Origin: Burkholderiaceae bacterium
GTDB taxonomy: Bacteria; Pseudomonadota; Gammaproteobacteria; Burkholderiales; Burkholderiaceae_C
DNA: 64,000 nucleotides
Reading direction: 5' to 3'
Assembly (NCBI GenBank): GCA_023150375.1
Contig: JAKLLA010000002.1
Location: forward strand, 248,001 to 312,000
This document shows, in pieces, positions 32,304 through 48,962 of the stretch. Position numbers and translations under genes: made by a program. The notes under the pieces were generated by a model. It was given only the letters and a program-made list of their open reading frames with translations, did not search any database and was not told where the DNA came from. Every line of letters begins with the position of its first letter. The stretch's first letter is position 1.

Positions 32304-33989
32304 CTACTGCCAGAGCACCTTCTGCTTGTCGGCGTACCAGCGGTGGATCTCGGGCTCGAGCATCTTCTCGATGCGGCCGCGCTTGATCTTCATCGTCGGC
32401 GTGAGGCAGCCGTTCTCGATGCTCCAGGGCTCGCGTGCGATCACCAGCATCCTCAGCTGCTCGTAGTCGGCCACCGCGGCGTTCACCTCGTCGAGCAGGC
32501 GCGACAGCTCGTTGGTCACCTCGGCGCGCACGGACGGCTCGTGCTGCCGCGGGCGCAGCGTCTCGCTGAGCAGCACCATCGCGAAGGCCGACGACTGCCC
32601 CACGCCGGAGACCAGCGACAGCTCCACCATCGGGTGGGCGTTGATGAGGTTCTCGATCGGCGCGGGCGCCACGTACTTGCCCTTGGCGGTCTTGAACAGC
32701 TCCTTGACCCGGCCGGTCAGCTTGAGCATGCCGTCGGCGGAAAACTCGCCCATGTCGCCGGTGCGGAAGAAGCCGTCCGGGGTGAAGCTCTCGGCGTCCA
32801 GGTCCGGGCGCTTGTAGTAGCCCACCAGCTGGCCGGGGCTCTTGATCAGCACCTCGCCCTCGGGGCTCAGGCGGGCCTGCACGCCCTTCATCTTCACTCC
32901 CACGTAGCCCGGTGCGTTGTGGGCGGCGTTGGAGGTGAAGGAGTAGGCGCAGTCCTCGGTCATGCCGTAGCCCTCGAACAGATTCAGGCCGATGCGGCGG
33001 TACCAGGCGATCAGGTCGGGCGGAATCGGCGCCGAGCCGCTGCCGGCCATCAGCACCTGGTCCAGGCCCAGGCCGGTGCGGATCTTCTTTGCGACGATCT
33101 TGCCGAGGAGGGGAATCTTCAGCAGCCGGTCGAGCTTGGCCGGCGGCATCTTGGCGAAGACGCCCTGCTGGAACTTCAGCCACAGCCGCGGCACGCTGAT
33201 GAACAGCGTGGGACGGGCGCGCTGCAGGTCGGCCAGGAAGGTGTCCAGCGCCTCGGCAAAGAACATCTGGGTGCGCCCGTCGACCAGCGAGAAGCCCTCG
33301 ATCCAGGTGCGCTCGAAGATGTGCGACAGCGGCAGGTACGACAGCACCCGGTTGGGCGTGTGCTGGCCGATGCGCCCGCGCAGATCCTCGTGGATGCCGG
33401 CGCAGGCGGCCGAGAAGCGCTCGAAGTTGTGCATCACGCCCTTGGGCGTGCCCGTGGAGCCGGAGGTGTACATCAGCACCGCCAGGTCGTCGGGGCGGCG
33501 CTGGGGCTGGCCGGCCATCGGCGGCGTGCGCGCGACGATCTCGTCCCAGGTCGCCAGGCCGTGGCCCTCGGGCGCGAGCGGGAAGGCGATGCAGGGCAGG
33601 TCCGCAGGCACACCGGGCTTCTGGTGCGCCCAGGTGTCGAGCTTGCCGACGAACAGCAGGCTGGCCTCGCTGTGCGACAGCACGTAGCCCACCGTCTCGG
33701 CCGTCTCGGTGGGGAAGATCGCCACGGTGGTGTAGCCGGCCATCCAGATCGCGATCTCGGCCATCACGAAGTGGGCACAGTTCTTCGACAGCATCGCGAT
33801 GCGCGCGCCCGGCGGGAAGCCGCGCGACTGCAGGTGCGCGGCCATGCGGCGCGACTGGTCCATGACCTTCGACCAGGTGTAGTCGACCACCTGCCCGTTG
33901 CCCACGGGCTGGGTCAGGAAGACCTTGTCGCCCAGGCCCTTTTCGTGGGCGTAGATGTAGTCGAGCATGAGCCTGCGGGGTTGCTCCAT
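32304..33989 (-). CDS. Long-chain acyl-CoA synthetase / AMP-binding ligase
   Basis: DDLAVLMYTSGSTGTPKGVMHNFERF (AMP-binding signature), GYGMTEDCAYSF, FFRTGDMGEFSADGMLKLTGRVKELFKTAKGKYVAPAPIENL. Start trimmed to MEQPRRLMLDYIYAHEKGLGD with SD caggaga. Confidence 0.93.
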   Translation of the reverse strand: MEQPRRLMLDYIYAHEKGLGDKVFLTQPVGNGQVVDYTWSKVMDQSRRMAAHLQSRGFPPGARIAMLSKNCAHFVMAEIAIWMAGYTTVAIFPTETAETVGYVLSHSEASLLFVGKLDTWAHQKPGVPADLPCIAFPLAPEGHGLATWDEIVARTPPMAGQPQRRPDDLAVLMYTSGSTGTPKGVMHNFERFSAACAGIHEDLRGRIGQHTPNRVLSYLPLSHIFERTWIEGFSLVDGRTQMFFAEALDTFLADLQRARPTLFISVPRLWLKFQQGVFAKMPPAKLDRLLKIPLLGKIVAKKIRTGLGLDQVLMAGSGSAPIPPDLIAWYRRIGLNLFEGYGMTEDCAYSFTSNAAHNAPGYVGVKMKGVQARLSPEGEVLIKSPGQLVGYYKRPDLDAESFTPDGFFRTGDMGEFSADGMLKLTGRVKELFKTAKGKYVAPAPIENLINAHPMVELSLVSGVGQSSAFAMVLLSETLRPRQHEPSVRAEVTNELSRLLDEVNAAVADYEQLRMLVIAREPWSIENGCLTPTMKIKRGRIEKMLEPEIHRWYADKQKVLWQ

Positions 33990-34285
33990 GGCGGAAGTCT
34001 CCTGTGGTGACGGCATCGCACAAGGTAACCAAGGCAGCGGCTTCTCGTCCACGGTAGATACCTGGGAGGGCCGACGCCTGGGCGACACGACACCCCGCCC
34101 GGCGTGGCTCGCCGGCCACGCAGCAGGCACCTGCAACCCAGGAAAGCGCCGATGTGCCGACCCGCGCTGCCGCGGCGAGAATGCATGCGAGCATCATCCT
34201 GGTGCAAGGTTCCGTTCGCCGTCCTGCCTTTCAGGCCTGCCGGGCGCGTCCATTGCCACCCGACCCCTCGGAAGGAGGCCCCGCC

Positions 34286-35701
34286 GTGAATCTCTTCGCC
34301 ACCCTGAACCAAACACTCGACCTGATCCCCGAAGGCACCCGCGCGGCCGGTCTGAGCGTGCTGATGAAGGGGGCCGGCAAGGTCACCCGCTTCCTGCCCA
34401 TCCCGCAGCCGACGCTGCTGGTCGGCCCGGGCGCCAGCCGGCGGCTGGGGCAGGCGCTGACCGGCTTCGGCCACGAGAAGCTGCTCATCGTCACCGATGC
34501 GGTGATCGTCGAGCTCGGGCTGCTGCAGGGCCTGACGCAGGCGCTCGAGGCGGGCGGCACAGCCTGGGCGCTGTTCGACGAGATCACGCCCGATGCGCCC
34601 ATTCCGCTGATCGAGCGCGGCCTGGCCCGTTTCCAGGAGGAGGGCTGCGACGCCCTGGTGGCCGTGGGCGGGGGCTCGGCGATGGATGCGGCCAAGGCGA
34701 TCGCGATCGCCAGCGCGAACCCGGCCAAGGACCTGCGCAGCCTGGCCGGCTACTTCAAGGGGCTGAGTCACCCGCCGCCGGTGTATGCCGTGCCCACCAC
34801 CGCGGGCACCGGCTCGGAGGTGACGGTGGCCGCCGTCATCGCCGATCCGCAGCGGCGCAGCAAGCTGGTCATCGTCGACACCCGGCTGGTGCCGAAGATG
34901 GCCGCGCTCGATCCGGAGCTGATGACCGGCCTGCCTCCGGCCATCACCGCGGCCACCGGGATGGACGCGCTCACCCATGCGGTGGAGGCCTTCCTGGGCC
35001 ACTGGGCCACGCCCGCCACCGACGGGCTGGCGCTGGCGGCGGTGGGCCTGATCTTCGAGAACCTGCCCCGTGCGTACCGCGAGGGCCGCGATCTGGAGGT
35101 GCGCGAGCGCATGGCGCTGGCCTCCACCTACGCGGGCATGGCCTTCACCCGCGCCAACGTCGGCTACGTGCATGCGATCGCGCACCAGTTCGGCGGGCGC
35201 TACCACACGCCGCACGGGCTGGCCAACGCCATCGTGCTGCCGCAGGTGCTGCGTTTCCTGGCGCCGGAGGTGACCGATCGCCTGGCCAGGCTGGCGCTGC
35301 GCGCCCGCCTGGGCAGCGTCGACGAGGACGAGCAGACCCTGGCCGACCGCTTCCTCGCCGCGGTGGAGGCCCTGGCGCGCGACCTGGGCATCCCGACCCA
35401 GCTGGCGGCCCTGCGCGAGCAGGACATCCCCGCGCTGGCCGAAGCGGCCCTGCACGAGGCCCACACCGGCTACCCGGTGCCGCGCTACATGAGCCGCGCG
35501 GAGTGCGAGGCACTGCTGCGCCGCCTGCTGCCGAGCGCCCCGCCGAGCGCCGCGAAGGCGGCCGAAGCGCCGCCCGAGGCACCCGCTGCGCCCGCCGCGA
35601 AGCCGAAGGCTGCCCGCGCCCCGCGCAAGGCCCGCGTGCGCAAGACCCCTCCGGCCGACCGCGACGACCGGACCGATGGACCACAGGAGGCATCCGCGTG
35701 A
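34286..35701 (+). CDS. Iron-containing alcohol dehydrogenase with basic Ala/Lys/Pro-rich C-terminal tail
   Basis: VAVGGGSAMDAAKAIA, VPTTAGTGSEVT, GMDALTHAVEAFL, HAIAHQFGGRYHTPHGLANAIVLP. GTG start after gaaggagg. Tail AAKAAEAPPEAPAAPAAKPKAARAPRKARVRKTPPADRDDRTDG. Confidence 0.93.
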   Translation: MNLFATLNQTLDLIPEGTRAAGLSVLMKGAGKVTRFLPIPQPTLLVGPGASRRLGQALTGFGHEKLLIVTDAVIVELGLLQGLTQALEAGGTAWALFDEITPDAPIPLIERGLARFQEEGCDALVAVGGGSAMDAAKAIAIASANPAKDLRSLAGYFKGLSHPPPVYAVPTTAGTGSEVTVAAVIADPQRRSKLVIVDTRLVPKMAALDPELMTGLPPAITAATGMDALTHAVEAFLGHWATPATDGLALAAVGLIFENLPRAYREGRDLEVRERMALASTYAGMAFTRANVGYVHAIAHQFGGRYHTPHGLANAIVLPQVLRFLAPEVTDRLARLALRARLGSVDEDEQTLADRFLAAVEALARDLGIPTQLAALREQDIPALAEAALHEAHTGYPVPRYMSRAECEALLRRLLPSAPPSAAKAAEAPPEAPAAPAAKPKAARAPRKARVRKTPPADRDDRTDGPQEASA

Positions 35702-38148
35702 AGAAGGTCACCACCGTTTCCCTGGGCTCGTCGAAGCAGGACTTCGAGTTCGAGACCCGGTTCCTCGGCCAGCCCTTCCGGGTGCGTCGCATGGGCGCGG
35801 ACGACGACATCGGCCGGGCCTGGGAACTGATGCGCCGCCAGCAGGCCGAGTGCGATGCCATCGGCCTGGGGGAAGTGGGCGACCACTACCACGTCGGCCA
35901 GGACACCCGCATCGACAAGGAAACGCAGCGCCTGCTCAAGGTGGTCACGCGCGTGCCGGCCACCACCGGCGCCACGCTGCGCCGGCTGCTGCAGGTGCGG
36001 GCCGTGCGCCAGGTGCACAACCAGCTCGGGCACTACTTCGACAACAACCTGGTGCTGTTCCTGTCGGGCATGCGCAACTACGACATGGCCGTGGCCCTGT
36101 CGGATTACACCCCGAACCTGAAGTTCGCCGATGCGCTGGCGCAGACGGGCGCCCCGACGATGCTGACCTCGCTGCTGCAGCTCGAGCTCTACGCCAGGGG
36201 CAGCGGCCTGGTGCTCGGCGGCCGGCCCGGCGAGATGCTCGAGGCCGCGCTGACCGGCTTCAAGCGCACGCGCCTCGCCGCCGAGGTGGAGCGCGCCCAC
36301 GTCGTGGTGGGCACCTTCCACGAACTCGAGCAGGTGGGCAGCCCGAAGAACCTGGCCGGCAAGACCGTCGTCACCTCGGCGGTGGACGAGCGCCGGCTGG
36401 CCTTCTTCAAGCGCTGCCGGGTCAACCTGGTGGTCGACGTCTCCCCGCAGCTGTTCGACCGCGTGGTGGGCACCAACGTCATCGAGGCCATGATCCTGGC
36501 CGCGCTGGACAAGCCCGCCGAGGCCGTGTCGGACGACGACTTCCTCGAGATCATCGACGAACTCGGCCTGCAGCCGCGCCTGCTGCACCCCACCGGGCGC
36601 TTTCGCAACATCCGCCGCTTCGCCTTCGTCATCCACCCGCTCAGCCAGGAGTTCATCCGCAAGGGCCTGCCCATCCCCCAGGGCACACCCAGGTTCCTGA
36701 TGGACCGGGTGGAGACCCTCGCGGCGCACATGCCGCCGATGGTGTACTGCAAGATGGAGAACATCGTCTCGCCCACCGGCGCAGAGGCCGAAGGCTGGCT
36801 GATCTCGGTGGGCGGCACACCCCGGGAGATGCTCGCACGCAGCCCGGAGTTCACCTACCGCCGCCTGCTGGCCGCCGCCGAGATGGCCGAGAAGCTGGGC
36901 GCACAGATCATGGGCCTGGGCGCCTTCACCAAGGTGGTGGGCGACGCCGGCGTCACGGTGGCGCGGCGCGCGCGCATTCCCATCACCACCGGCAACAGCT
37001 ACTCGGCCTCGGGCGCGCTCTGGGCCGCGGCCGACGCGATGAAGCGCATGGGCCTGGTGAAGCTGCACCCGCAGACGAAGAAGGTGATGGGCCGCACCAT
37101 GGTCATCGGCGCCACTGGCTCGATCGGCTCGGTCAGCGCCCGGCTGCTGGCCATGGCCTTCGACCAGGTGGTCATCGCCGGGCGCGACCTGGACAAGCTC
37201 GAGCAGCTCAAGGCCTCGATCCTGAAGGACACGCCCGAGGCGAACGTGCTGTGCTCGACCGACTACGACCGCCTGCTCGGCGAGATGGACATGATCGTCA
37301 CCAGCACCTCCGGGGCCGGCAAGAAGATCCTGGACATCATGAAGGTCAAGCCCGGCTGCGTCATCACCGATGTGGCCCGCCCGCTGGACCTGCCGCCCTC
37401 CGAGGTGGCCAAGCGCCCGGACGTGCTGGTGATCGAGTCGGGCGAGATCGAGCTGCCCACGCCGGTGAAGGGCCTCAAGAGCATCGGCCTGCCGCCCAAC
37501 GTGATCTACGCCTGCCTGGCCGAGACCATCGTGCTGGCACTCGAGGGTCGCTTCGAGGTCTTCACCATCGGCCGCGACACCGAATGGCCCAAGGTCAAGG
37601 AGATCTACCGCCTGGGCCTGAAGCACGGCATGAAGCTGGCCGCCATCTCCGGCGCCAAGGGGGTCTACAGCGACGAGGACATCGCCCAGGTCGTGCGCCT
37701 GGCGAAGGCGGCCCTGCGCACCTGGAAACCCGACGGCAGCGCAGCAGCGCGCCCGCCCCGCAAACGCGCGGCCCGGGCGGCACTGCCGGGTCCGGCCGCA
37801 GGGGTCTCGCCGACCGTCACGCCCGACGCCCCGCCCACGCCGGAGGGCGCTCCGCCCGCCGCCAGGAAGGTGGCGCAGAAAGTGGCGAAGAAGGTGGTGA
37901 CGAAAGTGGCGCAAGAGACGGCCAAGGAGGCGGCGACAAGCGCGGCGGAGACGGCGGTGGCCGGCAAGAAGGCCGCCAGGAAGGTCGCCAGGAAGGTCAC
38001 GAAGGAGGCCCCGAAGATGGCCGCCGTGCGGACAGCCGACGCGGCTGCGGCCGGGACCGCGGCCCTCGCCCCCCCGGCGGCCGAGGTACCGGCGGGAGGC
38101 ACGCCGAGGCCGCGCCGGCCGCGGGCTGCCAAGGTGGCCGCCGGCTGA
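35698..38148 (+). CDS. Long-chain fatty acyl reductase (AAR-like, COG5322) with ~310-aa N-terminal extension and Lys/Ala-rich PhaF/H1-like tail
   Basis: MPPMVYCKMENIVSPTG...GGTPREMLARSPEFTYRRLLAAAEMAEKLGAQIMGLGAFTKVV...ITTGNSYSASGAL...VIGATGSIGSVSARLLA...IYACLAETIVLALEGRFEVFTIGRD, resembling cyanobacterial AAR. GTG start overlaps the upstream stop (GTGA); SD caggagg. Confidence 0.8.
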   Translation: MKKVTTVSLGSSKQDFEFETRFLGQPFRVRRMGADDDIGRAWELMRRQQAECDAIGLGEVGDHYHVGQDTRIDKETQRLLKVVTRVPATTGATLRRLLQVRAVRQVHNQLGHYFDNNLVLFLSGMRNYDMAVALSDYTPNLKFADALAQTGAPTMLTSLLQLELYARGSGLVLGGRPGEMLEAALTGFKRTRLAAEVERAHVVVGTFHELEQVGSPKNLAGKTVVTSAVDERRLAFFKRCRVNLVVDVSPQLFDRVVGTNVIEAMILAALDKPAEAVSDDDFLEIIDELGLQPRLLHPTGRFRNIRRFAFVIHPLSQEFIRKGLPIPQGTPRFLMDRVETLAAHMPPMVYCKMENIVSPTGAEAEGWLISVGGTPREMLARSPEFTYRRLLAAAEMAEKLGAQIMGLGAFTKVVGDAGVTVARRARIPITTGNSYSASGALWAAADAMKRMGLVKLHPQTKKVMGRTMVIGATGSIGSVSARLLAMAFDQVVIAGRDLDKLEQLKASILKDTPEANVLCSTDYDRLLGEMDMIVTSTSGAGKKILDIMKVKPGCVITDVARPLDLPPSEVAKRPDVLVIESGEIELPTPVKGLKSIGLPPNVIYACLAETIVLALEGRFEVFTIGRDTEWPKVKEIYRLGLKHGMKLAAISGAKGVYSDEDIAQVVRLAKAALRTWKPDGSAAARPPRKRAARAALPGPAAGVSPTVTPDAPPTPEGAPPAARKVAQKVAKKVVTKVAQETAKEAATSAAETAVAGKKAARKVARKVTKEAPKMAAVRTADAAAAGTAALAPPAAEVPAGGTPRPRRPRAAKVAAG
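37861..38010 (+). repeat. Lys/Ala-encoding degenerate tandem repeat (KVAxK units)
   Basis: ARKVAQKVAKKVVTKVAQETAKEAA...GKKAARKVARKVTKEA; at DNA level gccaggaaggtc-gccaggaaggtc and related units. Confidence 0.75.
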
Positions 38149-38166
38149 TCGCCGCCGGGAGGGCCC

Positions 38167-39681
38167 ATGGACGAAGTCCGCCTGAACCCGCTCGACACGG
38201 CCTGGCTGTTCACCGAGTCGCGCGCCACGCCCAACCACGTCGGCGGGCTGCTGCAGTTCCGCCTGCCGCCGCAGGCACCGCGCGATTTCCTCAGCCGGCT
38301 GATGGCCGACTTCCGGGCCCACCGCCGCTTCGCGGCCCCCTGGAACCGGCGGCTGAAATCCGCCTTCACGAAGAACCCGCTGCCCTGCTGGGTGAGCGAG
38401 GACGACGAGGCCATCGACCTCGAATATCACCTGCGCCACGCCGCGCTGCCCTGGCCGGGCGGCGAGCGCGAGCTGGGGGAGCTGGTCGGCCGCCTGCAGA
38501 GCACGCCCATCGACCTGACGCGCCCGCCCTGGGAATGCACCCTGATCGAGGGCCTGGAAGGCGGGCGCTTCGCGATGTTCGTGAAGATGCACCATGCGCT
38601 GATCGACGGGATCAGCGGCATGAAGCTGCTGGAACGGGCCATGTCCGACGACCCGCAGCGCAGCCTGGCCCTGCCGCCGTTCTGGGATCGGCCCGAGGGC
38701 GCCCACCACCGGCCCGACCGGCCCGGCGGGACCGCACGCGCCAGCCCGCTGCCGACCTGGACCGAAGCGACGGCTGCAGCCCTCGAAGGGCTGAGCCTGC
38801 AGGCCAGGGCGCTGCCGCAGCTGGTGGGGGCCTTCGCCCAGATCGTGCGCCGCATCGGCGACCCCTCCGATGGGCTGGCCGTGCCCTTCGACGCGCCGCG
38901 CTCGCTGCTCAACGGCCGGGTCCGCGAGAAGCGCCGCTTCGCCACCCAGCAGTTCGAGCTGGCCCGGCTGCGGGCGCTGGCCGATGCCACCGGCGGCACC
39001 CTCAACGACGTGGTGCTGGCGCTGTGCGGCGGTGCGCTGCGCCGCTTCCTGTCCGAGCGCGGCGAGCTGCCCGAGAAATCGCTCACCGCGGGCATTCCGG
39101 TATCGGTGCGTCCCCAGGACGACGAGGGCACCGGCAACGCCATCAGCTTCATCGTCGCCACGCTGGGCACCGACCTGGAGAACCCCGCCGAGCGGCTGAA
39201 GGCGGTGCGCGCCTCGGTGCAGCATGCCAAGGCGCATGTGCAGAGCCTGACGCGCCCGGTGATGCAGCAGTACACCCTGCTGCTGATGGCGCCCACCCTG
39301 CTGACGCTGCTCACGGGCATCGGCGGGCGCACGCCGCCGATGTTCAACGTCACGATCAGCAACGTACCCGGCCCGGCACGCACGCTGTACTTCCGCGGCG
39401 CACAGCTGCTGTCGATCTACCCGGCCTCCATCGTCACCCACGGCCAGGCGCTGAACATCACCTGCGAGAGCTACGACGGGCAGATGAACTTCGGCTTCAC
39501 CGGCTGCCACGCCTCGCTGCCCAGCCTGCAGAAGGTGGCGGTCTACGCCGCCGAGGCGCTGCAGGAGCTGGAAGCCGCCTGCCTGCCCCGCCCGCGGCGT
39601 CGCCGTGCGCCCCGGCCGGTCGACGCCGAGGCGGTCGCCCGGCCGACGCGGCGCCGCAAGGCAGCCCCCGCAGAGGGCTGA
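38167..39681 (+). CDS. Wax ester synthase / diacylglycerol O-acyltransferase (WS/DGAT) with Arg/Lys-rich tail
   Basis: VKMHHALIDGISGMKLLERAM (HHxxxDG), RPPWECTLIEGL, GGTLNDVVLALCGGALRRFL, MFNVTISNVPGPARTLYFRGAQLLSIYPASIV. C-terminus RPRRRRAPRPVDAEAVARPTRRRKAAPAEG. Confidence 0.95.
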   Translation: MDEVRLNPLDTAWLFTESRATPNHVGGLLQFRLPPQAPRDFLSRLMADFRAHRRFAAPWNRRLKSAFTKNPLPCWVSEDDEAIDLEYHLRHAALPWPGGERELGELVGRLQSTPIDLTRPPWECTLIEGLEGGRFAMFVKMHHALIDGISGMKLLERAMSDDPQRSLALPPFWDRPEGAHHRPDRPGGTARASPLPTWTEATAAALEGLSLQARALPQLVGAFAQIVRRIGDPSDGLAVPFDAPRSLLNGRVREKRRFATQQFELARLRALADATGGTLNDVVLALCGGALRRFLSERGELPEKSLTAGIPVSVRPQDDEGTGNAISFIVATLGTDLENPAERLKAVRASVQHAKAHVQSLTRPVMQQYTLLLMAPTLLTLLTGIGGRTPPMFNVTISNVPGPARTLYFRGAQLLSIYPASIVTHGQALNITCESYDGQMNFGFTGCHASLPSLQKVAVYAAEALQELEAACLPRPRRRRAPRPVDAEAVARPTRRRKAAPAEG

Positions 39682-39700: not shown

Positions 39701-42196
39701 TCAGCGTGGGTGCGGGCCGTCGCGGCGGCCGAACACACCGCGCAGGCCCTGGCCGGCATGGAAGCGCCGCGGCGCCTCCTCGCCGCGCGCATCGCAGGCG
39801 CGCCGGTAGGCCTGCAGGCTGCGCTGCGCCCGGCCGAGCACGCTGTCGGCCGGGTAGCCCTCGGCAGCGTGGGTGCCCGTCGCCAGCTCGCCGTAGGGAT
39901 GGCCGGTCAGCAGCGCCAGGCCCTCGCCGGCGCTCTCGGCCGTGTAGAGGTGGAAGCGCCCCGCGGCCACCGCCTCGACCACCGGCGCATCGAGCATCAG
40001 GTGGCGGCGGTTGCGCGCCGGGATCAGCACGCCCTGGCGGCCGTCCAGGCCGAGCGCCTCGCAGCAGCGGAACCAGCCCTCGATCTTCTCGTTGATGCCG
40101 CCCACCGGCAGCATCTCGCCGTGCTGGTTGATCGCCCCGGTGACCGCGATGCCCTGTGCCACCGGCAGGCCCGACAGGCTCGACAGCAGGGCATAGAACT
40201 CGGCGCAGGAGGCCGAGTCGCCCTCCACGCCGCTGTACTCCTGCTCGAAGACCACCGCGCCGGTCAGCGCCAGCGGCGCGATGTGGGCGAACAGCGCCGA
40301 GAGGTGGCTGGCCAGGATCAGCACGCCCTTGCTGTGGATCGGGCCGGCCATCTCGACCTCGCGCTGGATGTCCAGCAGCCCCTCCTCGCCGGCGTGGGTG
40401 CGTGCGCTCACCCGCACCGGGAAGCCGAAGCGGTAGTCGCCCAGGTCGATCACGGTCAGGCCGTTGACCTGCCCGACCGCCTGGCCGGCCAGGCTGATCA
40501 GGCGCTCGCCGTCGACGATGCTCTCGCGCAGGCGCTGCTCGGGATGGTCGTGGCGCAGCCGGTGCGCCTGCTGCGCGCGGGCGACGTCGACCGCCTCGAG
40601 GCGCGCCGCGCCGCGTTGCTGCGCCAGCGCCGCCGCCTCCAGCAGCAGGGCCTCGCTGCGGCCGAACAGGGCACTCTGGCGGCGCTGGTCCTCGGCCTCG
40701 CGGTGGCTGGCCTCGAGCAGCGCGGCCACCGCCGCAGCCGAGGCCGGCGGCAGGGCCCGCCGCGCGCAGAGCTGGGCCACGAAGATCGCGGTGGCACGGT
40801 AGGACGCGGGCGAGGCCGCGAAGCTCTCGACGAAGTCCACCTTGCAGCGAAAGCGCCGGGCGAACTCGGGGTCGGCCTCCTGCACCAGGTAGTAGTCCTC
40901 CACCGAGGCGACCAGCACGATCTTGACCTCCACATCCACCGGCTCGGGCTGCAGCGACACCGCGGCGATCGGCGCCTGCACCATGCCGGGCTCCTCGATC
41001 TGCAGCCGGCCGCTGCGCAGGAAGCGGCGCAGCTTCTCCCACACCGGCGGATCGGCCATCAGGTCGCGCAGGTGCAGCATCAGGAAGCCGCCGTGCGCGC
41101 GCAGCAGGCTGCCGGCGCGCACCCGCGAGAAGTCGGTGACCAGCACATCGTTCTCGCTCTCGTACTCGATGCTGCCGAAGAGGGCGCGGAAGACCGGGTT
41201 GTCCTCGACGATCACCGGCGCGCCGCGCTGCCCGAGCTCGTCCTCGTGGTGGTCGACCACCACGTTGACGCGCAGCCGGGCGGTCAGCGCCAGCAGCCCG
41301 GCGACCCGCTCGGACTCGTCCAGGTCCTCGGCGGGCTGGAACAGCGCCAGGTTGTCCAGCAGGTCGGCCTGGACCCCCTCGAGGTACTGGGCGAGCTTGC
41401 GCGCATCCTTGATGCCGCGGCGCAGCGCCGCGCGGATCTTCTGCAGCTCGCGCTCGAGCAGCGGCTGCACCCACTGGCGGCGCAGCGTGGCCAGCGCCTC
41501 GCGGCGCGCCGCCTCGCGCAGCTGCATGGCCTCCAGGTGCGGGGCGATCTCGGCACGCAGGGCGGCCTCGGCGGCCTCGTTGGCGGCACGCCGCGCCGGC
41601 TCCAGCGTGAGAGCCTTGGCGGCGGTGAGCGGTTGGCCCGCCTCGTCGAGCTGGGTGAAGACGAAGTGCCCTTGCTCGCGCAGCAGGGTGAAGCCGTGCG
41701 CCTGGGCGCAGGCCGACAGCGCGACAAGGCTGCGCTCGTCCTCGGCCTGGCCGGCGGCCTCGAGGCGGTCGATGGCGGCCTTGGCCTCGGGCGCGGCCAG
41801 CCGACGGGGGATCTGCTCGTGCAGCGTGCGGGCGAACTCGCCCATCAGCTGGCGCAGCAGCCGGCCCTCGCCGGCGGGCAGGCGCAGCGCGCGCGGCTGC
41901 TCGGGATGCTCGAAGTGGTGCAGGTAGACCAGATCGGGCGGCACCGGCCGGGCTGCAGCCAGCGTGTGCATCATCTGCTGCATCAGCGTGCTGCGGCCGC
42001 TGCCGACCTCGCCGAGCACGAAGAGGTGGTAGTCCGGTGCCTGCATCGTCAGGCCGAAGCGCGCCGCCTGCTCGGCACGCTCCTGGCCGATCCAGGGCAG
42101 CGGCTGGCCGGCCAGCTCGGCCGTGTCGGCGAAGGGCAGCGTGGCCGGGTCGATCGTCAGGCGCAGGGCGGCGGGGGCAAGGGCGGCAGCAGGCAT
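39701..42196 (-). CDS. Lon-related AAA+ ATP-dependent protease
   Basis: LGEVGSGRSTLMQQMMHTLAA (P-loop), GDSASCAEFYALLSSLSGLPVAQGIAVTGAINQHGEMLPVGGINEKIEGWF (Lon Ser/Lys dyad). Start trimmed to MPAAALAPAALRLTID. Confidence 0.92.
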   Translation of the reverse strand: MPAAALAPAALRLTIDPATLPFADTAELAGQPLPWIGQERAEQAARFGLTMQAPDYHLFVLGEVGSGRSTLMQQMMHTLAAARPVPPDLVYLHHFEHPEQPRALRLPAGEGRLLRQLMGEFARTLHEQIPRRLAAPEAKAAIDRLEAAGQAEDERSLVALSACAQAHGFTLLREQGHFVFTQLDEAGQPLTAAKALTLEPARRAANEAAEAALRAEIAPHLEAMQLREAARREALATLRRQWVQPLLERELQKIRAALRRGIKDARKLAQYLEGVQADLLDNLALFQPAEDLDESERVAGLLALTARLRVNVVVDHHEDELGQRGAPVIVEDNPVFRALFGSIEYESENDVLVTDFSRVRAGSLLRAHGGFLMLHLRDLMADPPVWEKLRRFLRSGRLQIEEPGMVQAPIAAVSLQPEPVDVEVKIVLVASVEDYYLVQEADPEFARRFRCKVDFVESFAASPASYRATAIFVAQLCARRALPPASAAAVAALLEASHREAEDQRRQSALFGRSEALLLEAAALAQQRGAARLEAVDVARAQQAHRLRHDHPEQRLRESIVDGERLISLAGQAVGQVNGLTVIDLGDYRFGFPVRVSARTHAGEEGLLDIQREVEMAGPIHSKGVLILASHLSALFAHIAPLALTGAVVFEQEYSGVEGDSASCAEFYALLSSLSGLPVAQGIAVTGAINQHGEMLPVGGINEKIEGWFRCCEALGLDGRQGVLIPARNRRHLMLDAPVVEAVAAGRFHLYTAESAGEGLALLTGHPYGELATGTHAAEGYPADSVLGRAQRSLQAYRRACDARGEEAPRRFHAGQGLRGVFGRRDGPHPR

Positions 42197-42323
42197 GGGG
42201 CGGCGGGCGCCGCGCGGGGCGACGCAAGGTGGGCCGCAGGATTGTGCGCGGTCCGGCGCCGACCGGCCAGCCGGCGCGCGCCGACCGCGCGGAGCGAGCG
42301 GGGCGATCGGCGGCGGGGGCGGT

Positions 42324-43292
42324 TCAGGCCCCGGCCTCGAACAGCGCCCGCAGCCGCTCGCCCAGCCAGGCCTGCGCGGCGTCGGGCGCACGCCGCCGCG
42401 AGGCGTGCAGCGAGACGACGAAGCGCGGCCAGTGCCCGGGCAGTTCCTGCTGCACGAAGTCGCCGGCGCGCACCCACTCGCGCGCCAGCTCGGCGGGCAT
42501 CACGACACCCAGGTCGCTGCGCTGCACGATGGCCGGCAGGGCCAGGAAGTGCGAGGCCGACAGGCGCACCCGGCCGGACAGATCCAGGCTGTGCAGCACG
42601 GCCAGCGTCTCGGAGTGCGAGCGCACCACGCCGTAGCCCAGGCCGGCGAGCACCTCGCGCAGGGCTGCGTCGTCGCCCCGGGCATGCGCCAGGGCGGCCT
42701 GCACGGGATGGCCCCGGCGCAGCAGCAGGGTGTAGTGGTCCTCGACCAGCGGCCAGGCACGGGTGGGCTGCGCGGCGCCGCCGGCCTTCAGGCTCGGCAG
42801 GTAGCCGAAGGCGAAGTCGAGCTCGCCGCTGTCGAGCAGGCCGGCGATGCGCTCGGGCTCGACGACGCGGCAGTCGACCGTCACGCCCGGGGCGCGCTGC
42901 CCCAGGTCGGCCATCAGCGCGGGCAGGAAGCGTGCCTCGCCGATGTCGCTCAGGTGCAGGCGGAAGTGGCGGCGCGAGCGGGCAGGCTCGAAGCGCAGCG
43001 AGTCGCCCAGCGCATCGTCCAGCAGGGCCAGCGCCTGGCCGACCGCCAGCGCCAGCCGGTCGGCCGTGGGCGTGGGACGCACGCCGTGGTGGGCGCGGGC
43101 GAACAGCGGATCGCGCAGCTCACGACGCAGGCGGGCGATGGCGCTGCTGGCAGCCGGCTGGCTCATGCCCAGCAGCTCGGCCGCGCGGCTGACGCTGCGG
43201 GTGCGGTGCACCGCCTCGAAGACGCGCAGCAGGTTGAGGTCGAGCCGGGTCGGGTCGAGGGCATCGAAGGCGTCGGCGGCCGTGTTATCCAT
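42324..43292 (-). CDS. LysR-family transcriptional regulator
   Basis: LDLNLLRVFEAVHRTRSVSRAAELLGMSQPAASSAIARLRRELRDPLFARAHHGVRPTPTADRL. Divergent from the IorA-like gene. Confidence 0.92.
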   Translation of the reverse strand: MDNTAADAFDALDPTRLDLNLLRVFEAVHRTRSVSRAAELLGMSQPAASSAIARLRRELRDPLFARAHHGVRPTPTADRLALAVGQALALLDDALGDSLRFEPARSRRHFRLHLSDIGEARFLPALMADLGQRAPGVTVDCRVVEPERIAGLLDSGELDFAFGYLPSLKAGGAAQPTRAWPLVEDHYTLLLRRGHPVQAALAHARGDDAALREVLAGLGYGVVRSHSETLAVLHSLDLSGRVRLSASHFLALPAIVQRSDLGVVMPAELAREWVRAGDFVQQELPGHWPRFVVSLHASRRRAPDAAQAWLGERLRALFEAGA

Positions 43293-48287: not shown

Positions 48288-48962
48288 TCAGCGCGCCTGC
48301 GCGGCGGCCGGCGTCCGGGCCGCGGCTTCCTTGCGGCGCGCCCGCCAGGCGCCGAAGATCGCCAGCAGCCCCGGCACGATGATCAGCGCCCAGATGATCT
48401 TCGACAGGTTCGCCTGCACCCAGGGCAGGTTGCCGAAGAAGTAGCCGGCCGTGACGATGCCCACCACCCAGAGCAGCGCACCGGTGACGTTGTAGAAGCT
48501 GAACTTGGCACGCGTCATCTCCGCCACGCCGGCCACGAAGGGCACGAAGGTGCGCACGAAGGGCATGAAGCGGGCGATGACGATGGTGATGCCGCCGTAG
48601 CGCTCGTAGAACTCGTGCGCCTGGTCGAAGGCACGGCGGTTGAAGAAGCGGCTGTTCTCCCAGCCGAACACCTTCGGCCCGATGTAGCGGCCGATGCTGT
48701 AGTTGGCCTGATCGCCCAGGATGGCCGCCAGCAGCAGCAGCACCACCACCAGCGGATAGCTCAGCAGCCCCGCGCCGGCCAGGGCGCCGACGACGAAGAG
48801 CAGCGAATCGCCCGGCAGGAAGGGCATCACCACCACGCCGGTCTCGACGAAGACGATCAGGAACAGCAGCGCATAGATCCAGGGCCCGTAGGCTGCCACG
48901 AAAGCCTGCAGGTGGCGGTCCACGTGCAGCACGAAGTCGATCAGGGAAAGCAGCAGGTCCAT
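48288..48962 (-). CDS. DedA family membrane protein
   Basis: FVETGVVVMPFLPGDSLLFVVGALAGAG...LGDQANYSIGRYIGPKVF...ITIVIARFMPFVRTFVPFVAGVAEM. Confidence 0.95.
   Translation of the reverse strand: MDLLLSLIDFVLHVDRHLQAFVAAYGPWIYALLFLIVFVETGVVVMPFLPGDSLLFVVGALAGAGLLSYPLVVVLLLLAAILGDQANYSIGRYIGPKVFGWENSRFFNRRAFDQAHEFYERYGGITIVIARFMPFVRTFVPFVAGVAEMTRAKFSFYNVTGALLWVVGIVTAGYFFGNLPWVQANLSKIIWALIIVPGLLAIFGAWRARRKEAAARTPAAAQAR

Follow-up and report, generated by a model that had tools for sequence, protein, structure and literature searches.

Several bacterial proteins are known to hold storage inclusions on the chromosome by means of a basic tail, and PhaM, PhaF and AlgP are listed together as nucleoid tethers in a review (PMC13052382). 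The lysines of the PAKKA motifs of PhaM attach PHB granules to the nucleoid, according to another review (PMC9049629), and the tails of PhaF and AlgP are built of KPAA/AAKP repeats (PMC5658603, PMC9239181), the histone H1-like tail of AlgP serving polyphosphate granules (PMC9239181). In the droplet protein MLDS, the PAKKA-bearing C-terminus binds DNA, and lysine-to-glutamate changes abolish that binding (PMC5504291). Tails of this kind are already known. The literature that we searched, mostly outside the subscription journals, did not mention them on pathway enzymes, and the part of it on wax-ester enzymes and inclusions contained no report of tails on wax enzymes.

The locus lies in a window of 64,000 nucleotides (G000:C13:248001-312000, the whole stretch of DNA that was analysed) from a betaproteobacterial genome of high GC content (72.5%). 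Three consecutive genes, all on the + strand, probably encode enzymes that make storage wax. The first, 34286..35701, starts with GTG and encodes an iron-dependent alcohol dehydrogenase of 471 aa (ADH; Pfam PF25137 and PF00465, the domain ending at aa 414). The second, 35698-38148, encodes a reductase of 816 aa (RED), and its GTG start overlaps the ADH stop as GTGA. The third, 38167..39681, encodes a wax ester synthase/diacylglycerol acyltransferase of 504 aa (WS; TIGR02946, PF03007 and PF06974), which scores 451.9 bits against TIGR02946, above the curated cut-off of 309.95, in a match that ends at aa 472. The likely route is from an acyl-thioester to the aldehyde (RED), to the alcohol (ADH), and, with acyl-CoA, to the wax ester (WS), with the substrates assigned by reasoning from the genes. 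Gene linkage is the ground on which ADH would probably convert a fatty aldehyde to a fatty alcohol, and the linkage of RED and ADH is likewise why we infer that the WS product is wax ester and not triacylglycerol. On either side of the three genes lie an acyl-CoA synthetase gene (window 32304-34007), divergent beside ADH and with a counterpart in only one of 80 homologous loci (L058, 27% identity), and a LonB-like protease gene (window 39701-42352) that is convergent to WS.

RED cannot be placed firmly in a named family. Its core of 681 aa (35698..37740, +), delimited by NCBIfam and PDB profile matches and an alignment of orthologues, consists of an N-terminal region of ~300 aa (window 35698-36620), which is well conserved yet matches no Pfam or NCBIfam family, and a PigE-N/AAR-like acyl-thioester reductase half. 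The second half matches both PigE and the cyanobacterial acyl-ACP reductase (AAR) and is homologous to AAR and to the N-terminal domain of PigE, but the scores fall far under both NCBIfam cut-offs; against the AAR family TIGR04058, RED reached 60.8 bits where the curated cut-off is 449.7. A profile of 18 RED orthologues matched PDB 4ppm and 6jzq/6jzu (E 5e-17 for 6jzq/6jzu). Cys606 is invariant in RED and lines up with the cysteine within the CFAE stretch of AAR, and RED carries a GATGSIGS nucleotide-binding motif; by profile matches and alignment it thus has the reductase fold together with the conserved Cys and the nucleotide motif. Reduction of a thioester by PigE is reported (PMC8341465). 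RED differs from AAR and the PigE N-terminal domain in its extra ~300-aa N-terminal region and in its basic tail. A structure model of full-length RED had low confidence throughout (mean pLDDT 52).

Beyond their conserved cores, ADH, RED and WS continue for ~55, 135 and 32 residues, respectively, composed chiefly of Ala, Pro, Lys and Arg, and the basic low-complexity tails that the sequence-only reading had described on all three enzymes are indeed where it placed them. The RED tail (37741..38145, +; net charge +18) begins past a core whose end falls at aa 677-681, and the WS tail (39583..39678, +; net +8) past the end of the TIGR02946 match. The ADH tail (35534..35698, +), which lies outside the Pfam domain as well as the conserved core, is weakly basic: its net charge is +3 to +4, depending on where the tail is cut, and its last part is acidic. 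The protein truly ends in ...DDRTDGPQEASA, six residues beyond the version given in that reading. In the full-length model the RED tail is coil with a pLDDT of ~30; its proline-poor K/A/V segment (aa 720-789; 37855..38064, +) formed one long helix when modelled alone, a single-sequence prediction of low weight.

Such tails are rare in the rest of the genome. Genes were predicted with a simple codon-usage script rather than a published caller in a sample of 51% of the genome (1784 predicted proteins), and of the 1092 other proteins with at least 250 aa only 8 had an A/P/K/R tail, compared with five of the six ADH/RED/WS proteins (Fisher p 6e-10). The sixth, a WS paralogue, has a tail of 91 aa (net +13) that narrowly misses the criterion, its K+R fraction being 0.176 where the threshold is 0.18. 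The rate among the other sampled proteins rules out a genome that is generally rich in tails, and the fear that tails might be common on unrelated proteins proved unfounded in the sampled 51%. Since the three genes of the window had been picked for having tails, an independent test was provided by three further, unlinked WS/DGATs on other contigs, and all three have basic low-complexity tails (net +9, +13 and +11).

A scan of 85,488 genomes yielded 80 RED loci that were kept, mostly from Betaproteobacteria with a few other groups; many are from metagenome bins, and the isolates include Comamonas badia, three Inhella and Variovorax. With a basic tail taken as one of net charge +4 or more, basic tails are present on 73 of 75 RED, 68 of 71 ADH and all 11 WS orthologues of >=65% identity, so that the tails are not lost at random among orthologues. 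Those of RED and ADH are both basic in 64 of 66 loci, the exceptions being L085, in which the ADH is a 53% homologue on the opposite strand, and the window itself, in which the ADH tail is +3 by that cut. Some ADH tails are shorter than 15 aa. Among neighbouring predicted proteins, tails of this sort are limited to 5 of 273. Two Comamonas loci account for four of the five, with a phasin (PF05597) and a helix-turn-helix protein, and the remaining one is a protein of the window at 48288-48962. The loci are related by descent, and the very small Fisher p-values are for that reason not independent evidence. A search of 12 congeneric genomes found no RED, only short weak hits, and the locus is therefore patchy, through transfer or loss.

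The notion of the operon as the unit that carries the tails did not hold up. Only a minority of loci have an adjacent WS. Another RED clade (L183-L190; 55-60% identity, same family), which coexists with the first in some genomes, has its ADH divergently oriented and has tails on both proteins; two genomes of another family with this second RED (G418, G453) have tails of 8-12 aa only. These divergent pairs, with the tails on unlinked WS paralogues, rule out targeting restricted to the operon. Nor is the tail a general property of either enzyme family. In 40 RED-less genomes no ADH orthologue was found, the best ADH relative there being 44% identical, and a basic tail was absent from all 30 such ADH paralogues, which excludes a general Fe-ADH property. 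A general WS/DGAT property is excluded as well: in other genomes most ws2-type WS are tail-less, and WS of 31-33% identity found beside RED (L069, L077, L080) are without a tail, so the WS tail is not required. Based on these clade and paralogue controls, RED and its ADH are, as far as sequences tell, the constant tail bearers and the WS1 clade follows them. That each of the four WS in this genome has a tail looks like a local extension.

The RED tails have repeats beyond what their composition would give. PAKKA is over-represented (z=18), KAPAKK is enriched, and K/R show autocorrelation at lag 5 (z=24); PAKKA is present in 27 of 75 RED tails and [AP]KK[AP] in 58 of 75. As a group, they share with PhaM, PhaF and MLDS a basic Lys/Ala/Pro C-terminal tail with PAKKA-like repeats. 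The histone H1-like Pfam family HC2 (PF07382) was matched by 17 of 73 RED tails at E<=0.001, and NCBIfam hist_H1_lk_Burk by 13 of 73, low-complexity matches that are in both cases partly compositional; the one tail checked against a cut-off, that of L068, scored 45.4 bits against HC2 (curated cut-off 40). HC2 was also matched by 3 of 26 ADH tails. The window's own tails match neither profile, and its RED tail lacks PAKKA.

Close pairs of orthologues (core identity 0.91-0.99) showed that the tails evolve quickly. The dN of the tail was often ~10-fold or more that of the core, and indels were frequent; tail dN was lower than dS in most pairs. Under identity-only scoring, K/R were retained as K/R at 92% (RED) and 90% (ADH) of aligned tail sites, compared with an identity of 36-82%, a few lower small-sample values excepted, for P, T, V, S and G. 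Tail length increases with GC, and K/(K+R) drops as R replaces K, but the charge is still positive, and the tails are basic in lower-GC species too. The expected covariation in charge between the tails did not appear: for ADH and RED, the partial rho was near 0 for both charge and length after control for GC. What is conserved is, to judge from these sequences, a disordered polycation with H1-like repeats.

These features place the locus beside the known tethers and also set it apart. The likeness to PhaM (Cupriavidus necator) and PhaF (Pseudomonas putida) lies in the basic Lys/Ala/Pro tail and its PAKKA or AAKP-like repeats, but those are phasin-type proteins of storage inclusions for which DNA binding was shown, whereas here the tails are on biosynthetic enzymes and are known from sequence. 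MLDS of Rhodococcus jostii RHA1 shares the PAKKA-bearing C-terminus and an association with neutral lipid, but it belongs to an actinobacterium and has a structural role on droplets, unlike RED, ADH and WS. AlgP (Pseudomonas aeruginosa) and the HC2 and Burkholderia H1-like proteins share the H1-like tail, some RED tails matching HC2 or hist_H1_lk_Burk, but they are dedicated DNA-binding proteins, whereas the tails described here are attached to enzymes. No phasin-type or droplet-coat N-terminal domain was found on ADH, RED or WS, all of which match enzyme families.

A common targeting role, as first proposed, is the best reading of these sequences, since the tails are of one type, occur together in nearly all RED-ADH pairs and on every close WS orthologue, are seldom found on other proteins and resemble H1 by profile matches. 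This suggests that the enzymes that make the wax, as well as any separate coat proteins, may be kept on DNA or on some other surface of negative charge. Because of the precedents of MLDS, PhaM, PhaF and AlgP and the H1-like repeats, DNA binding is the leading explanation. The tails would be disordered histone-H1-like polycations that bind DNA irrespective of its sequence and so tether RED, ADH and WS to the nucleoid. Wax would then be made on the chromosome and the inclusions would form and stay held there, much as PhaM and PhaF serve PHA granules, AlgP polyphosphate and MLDS rhodococcal droplets, except that here each enzyme would carry its own tether. This reading, in which DNA-binding tails keep the making of wax at the nucleoid, with a presumed part in co-localisation and in inclusion number and segregation, has a little less than an even chance of being right. 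Bolder, and more tentative, is the idea of a whole pathway addressed to the chromosome, in which each of RED, ADH and WS would have its own histone-like DNA tether, wax bodies would arise on the nucleoid and pass with it to the daughter cells, and the tail would act as a transferable address label that unrelated folds have acquired (here all four WS/DGATs).

The main rival to DNA binding is binding to anionic phospholipid, at the inner membrane or the droplet monolayer, which would concentrate the enzymes where the hydrophobic aldehyde and alcohol partition. The substrates are membrane-soluble, and the window's RED tail, with the long helix that it forms when modelled alone, contains, within aa 720-789, a cationic amphipathic 18-mer (muH 0.61, shuffle p 0.01). 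That 18-mer, however, is seen in this species only: muH reached >=0.5 in 1 of 73 RED tails, namely that of the window, the median longest proline-free run in RED tails is 16, and the tails of ADH and RED have almost no bulky hydrophobic residues and no aromatics counted. An amphipathic anchor is for these reasons not the conserved feature, and a conserved amphipathic helix is ruled out beyond this species. Simple electrostatic binding to lipid is possible, and we regard the lipid explanation as a whole as rather unlikely.

Less probable still is that the tails draw the enzymes into shared condensates, either among themselves or together with an acidic partner (acyl-ACP, polyphosphate or RNA), giving a metabolon without a fixed address. 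One tail type does run across all three steps, and RED resembles an acyl-ACP reductase, ACP being acidic; the pathway showed no matching acidic tails, however, and WS in the characterised cases uses acyl-CoA and is not known to use ACP. The H1-like tail of AlgP, with its service to polyphosphate granules (PMC9239181), is a precedent that would suit an acidic partner. That the tails are neutral low-complexity extensions from slippage in GC-rich genomes is improbable, for although their sequence and length turn over quickly and length increases with GC, they are found specifically on RED, ADH and some WS and not on C-termini at large, are basic at lower GC also, conserve their K/R sites with dN < dS in most pairs, and have a PAKKA periodicity that exceeds composition.

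If DNA binding is the correct explanation, its interest lies in where the tail is found. In PhaM, PhaF, AlgP and MLDS it belongs to an inclusion-associated protein, and here it is borne in parallel by unrelated folds, the enzymes of a neutral-lipid pathway, in many Betaproteobacteria. Tailed enzymes permit a direct test of whether storage inclusions are placed by the site of synthesis, and tail composition could serve as a marker for finding inclusion proteins in genomes.

Other genes with similar tails, or with ties to storage, were encountered. The genome encodes two PHA synthases, and a PF05597 phasin with an A/R/K-rich tail (G000:C28:220138-220473; L217:4111-4650) lies ~5 kb from the ws2 WS/DGAT paralogue, on account of which the tailed wax enzymes may be connected with PHA granules. 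Beside a WS/DGAT in this genome lies an HTH_31 protein (L218:11716-12462) whose tail is basic or Ala-rich; this protein is present in 4 of 13 RED-bearing genomes, compared with 0 of 10 RED-less genomes searched, and in two Comamonas loci it is encoded directly upstream of ADH (L019:2867-3607; L020:2888-3625).
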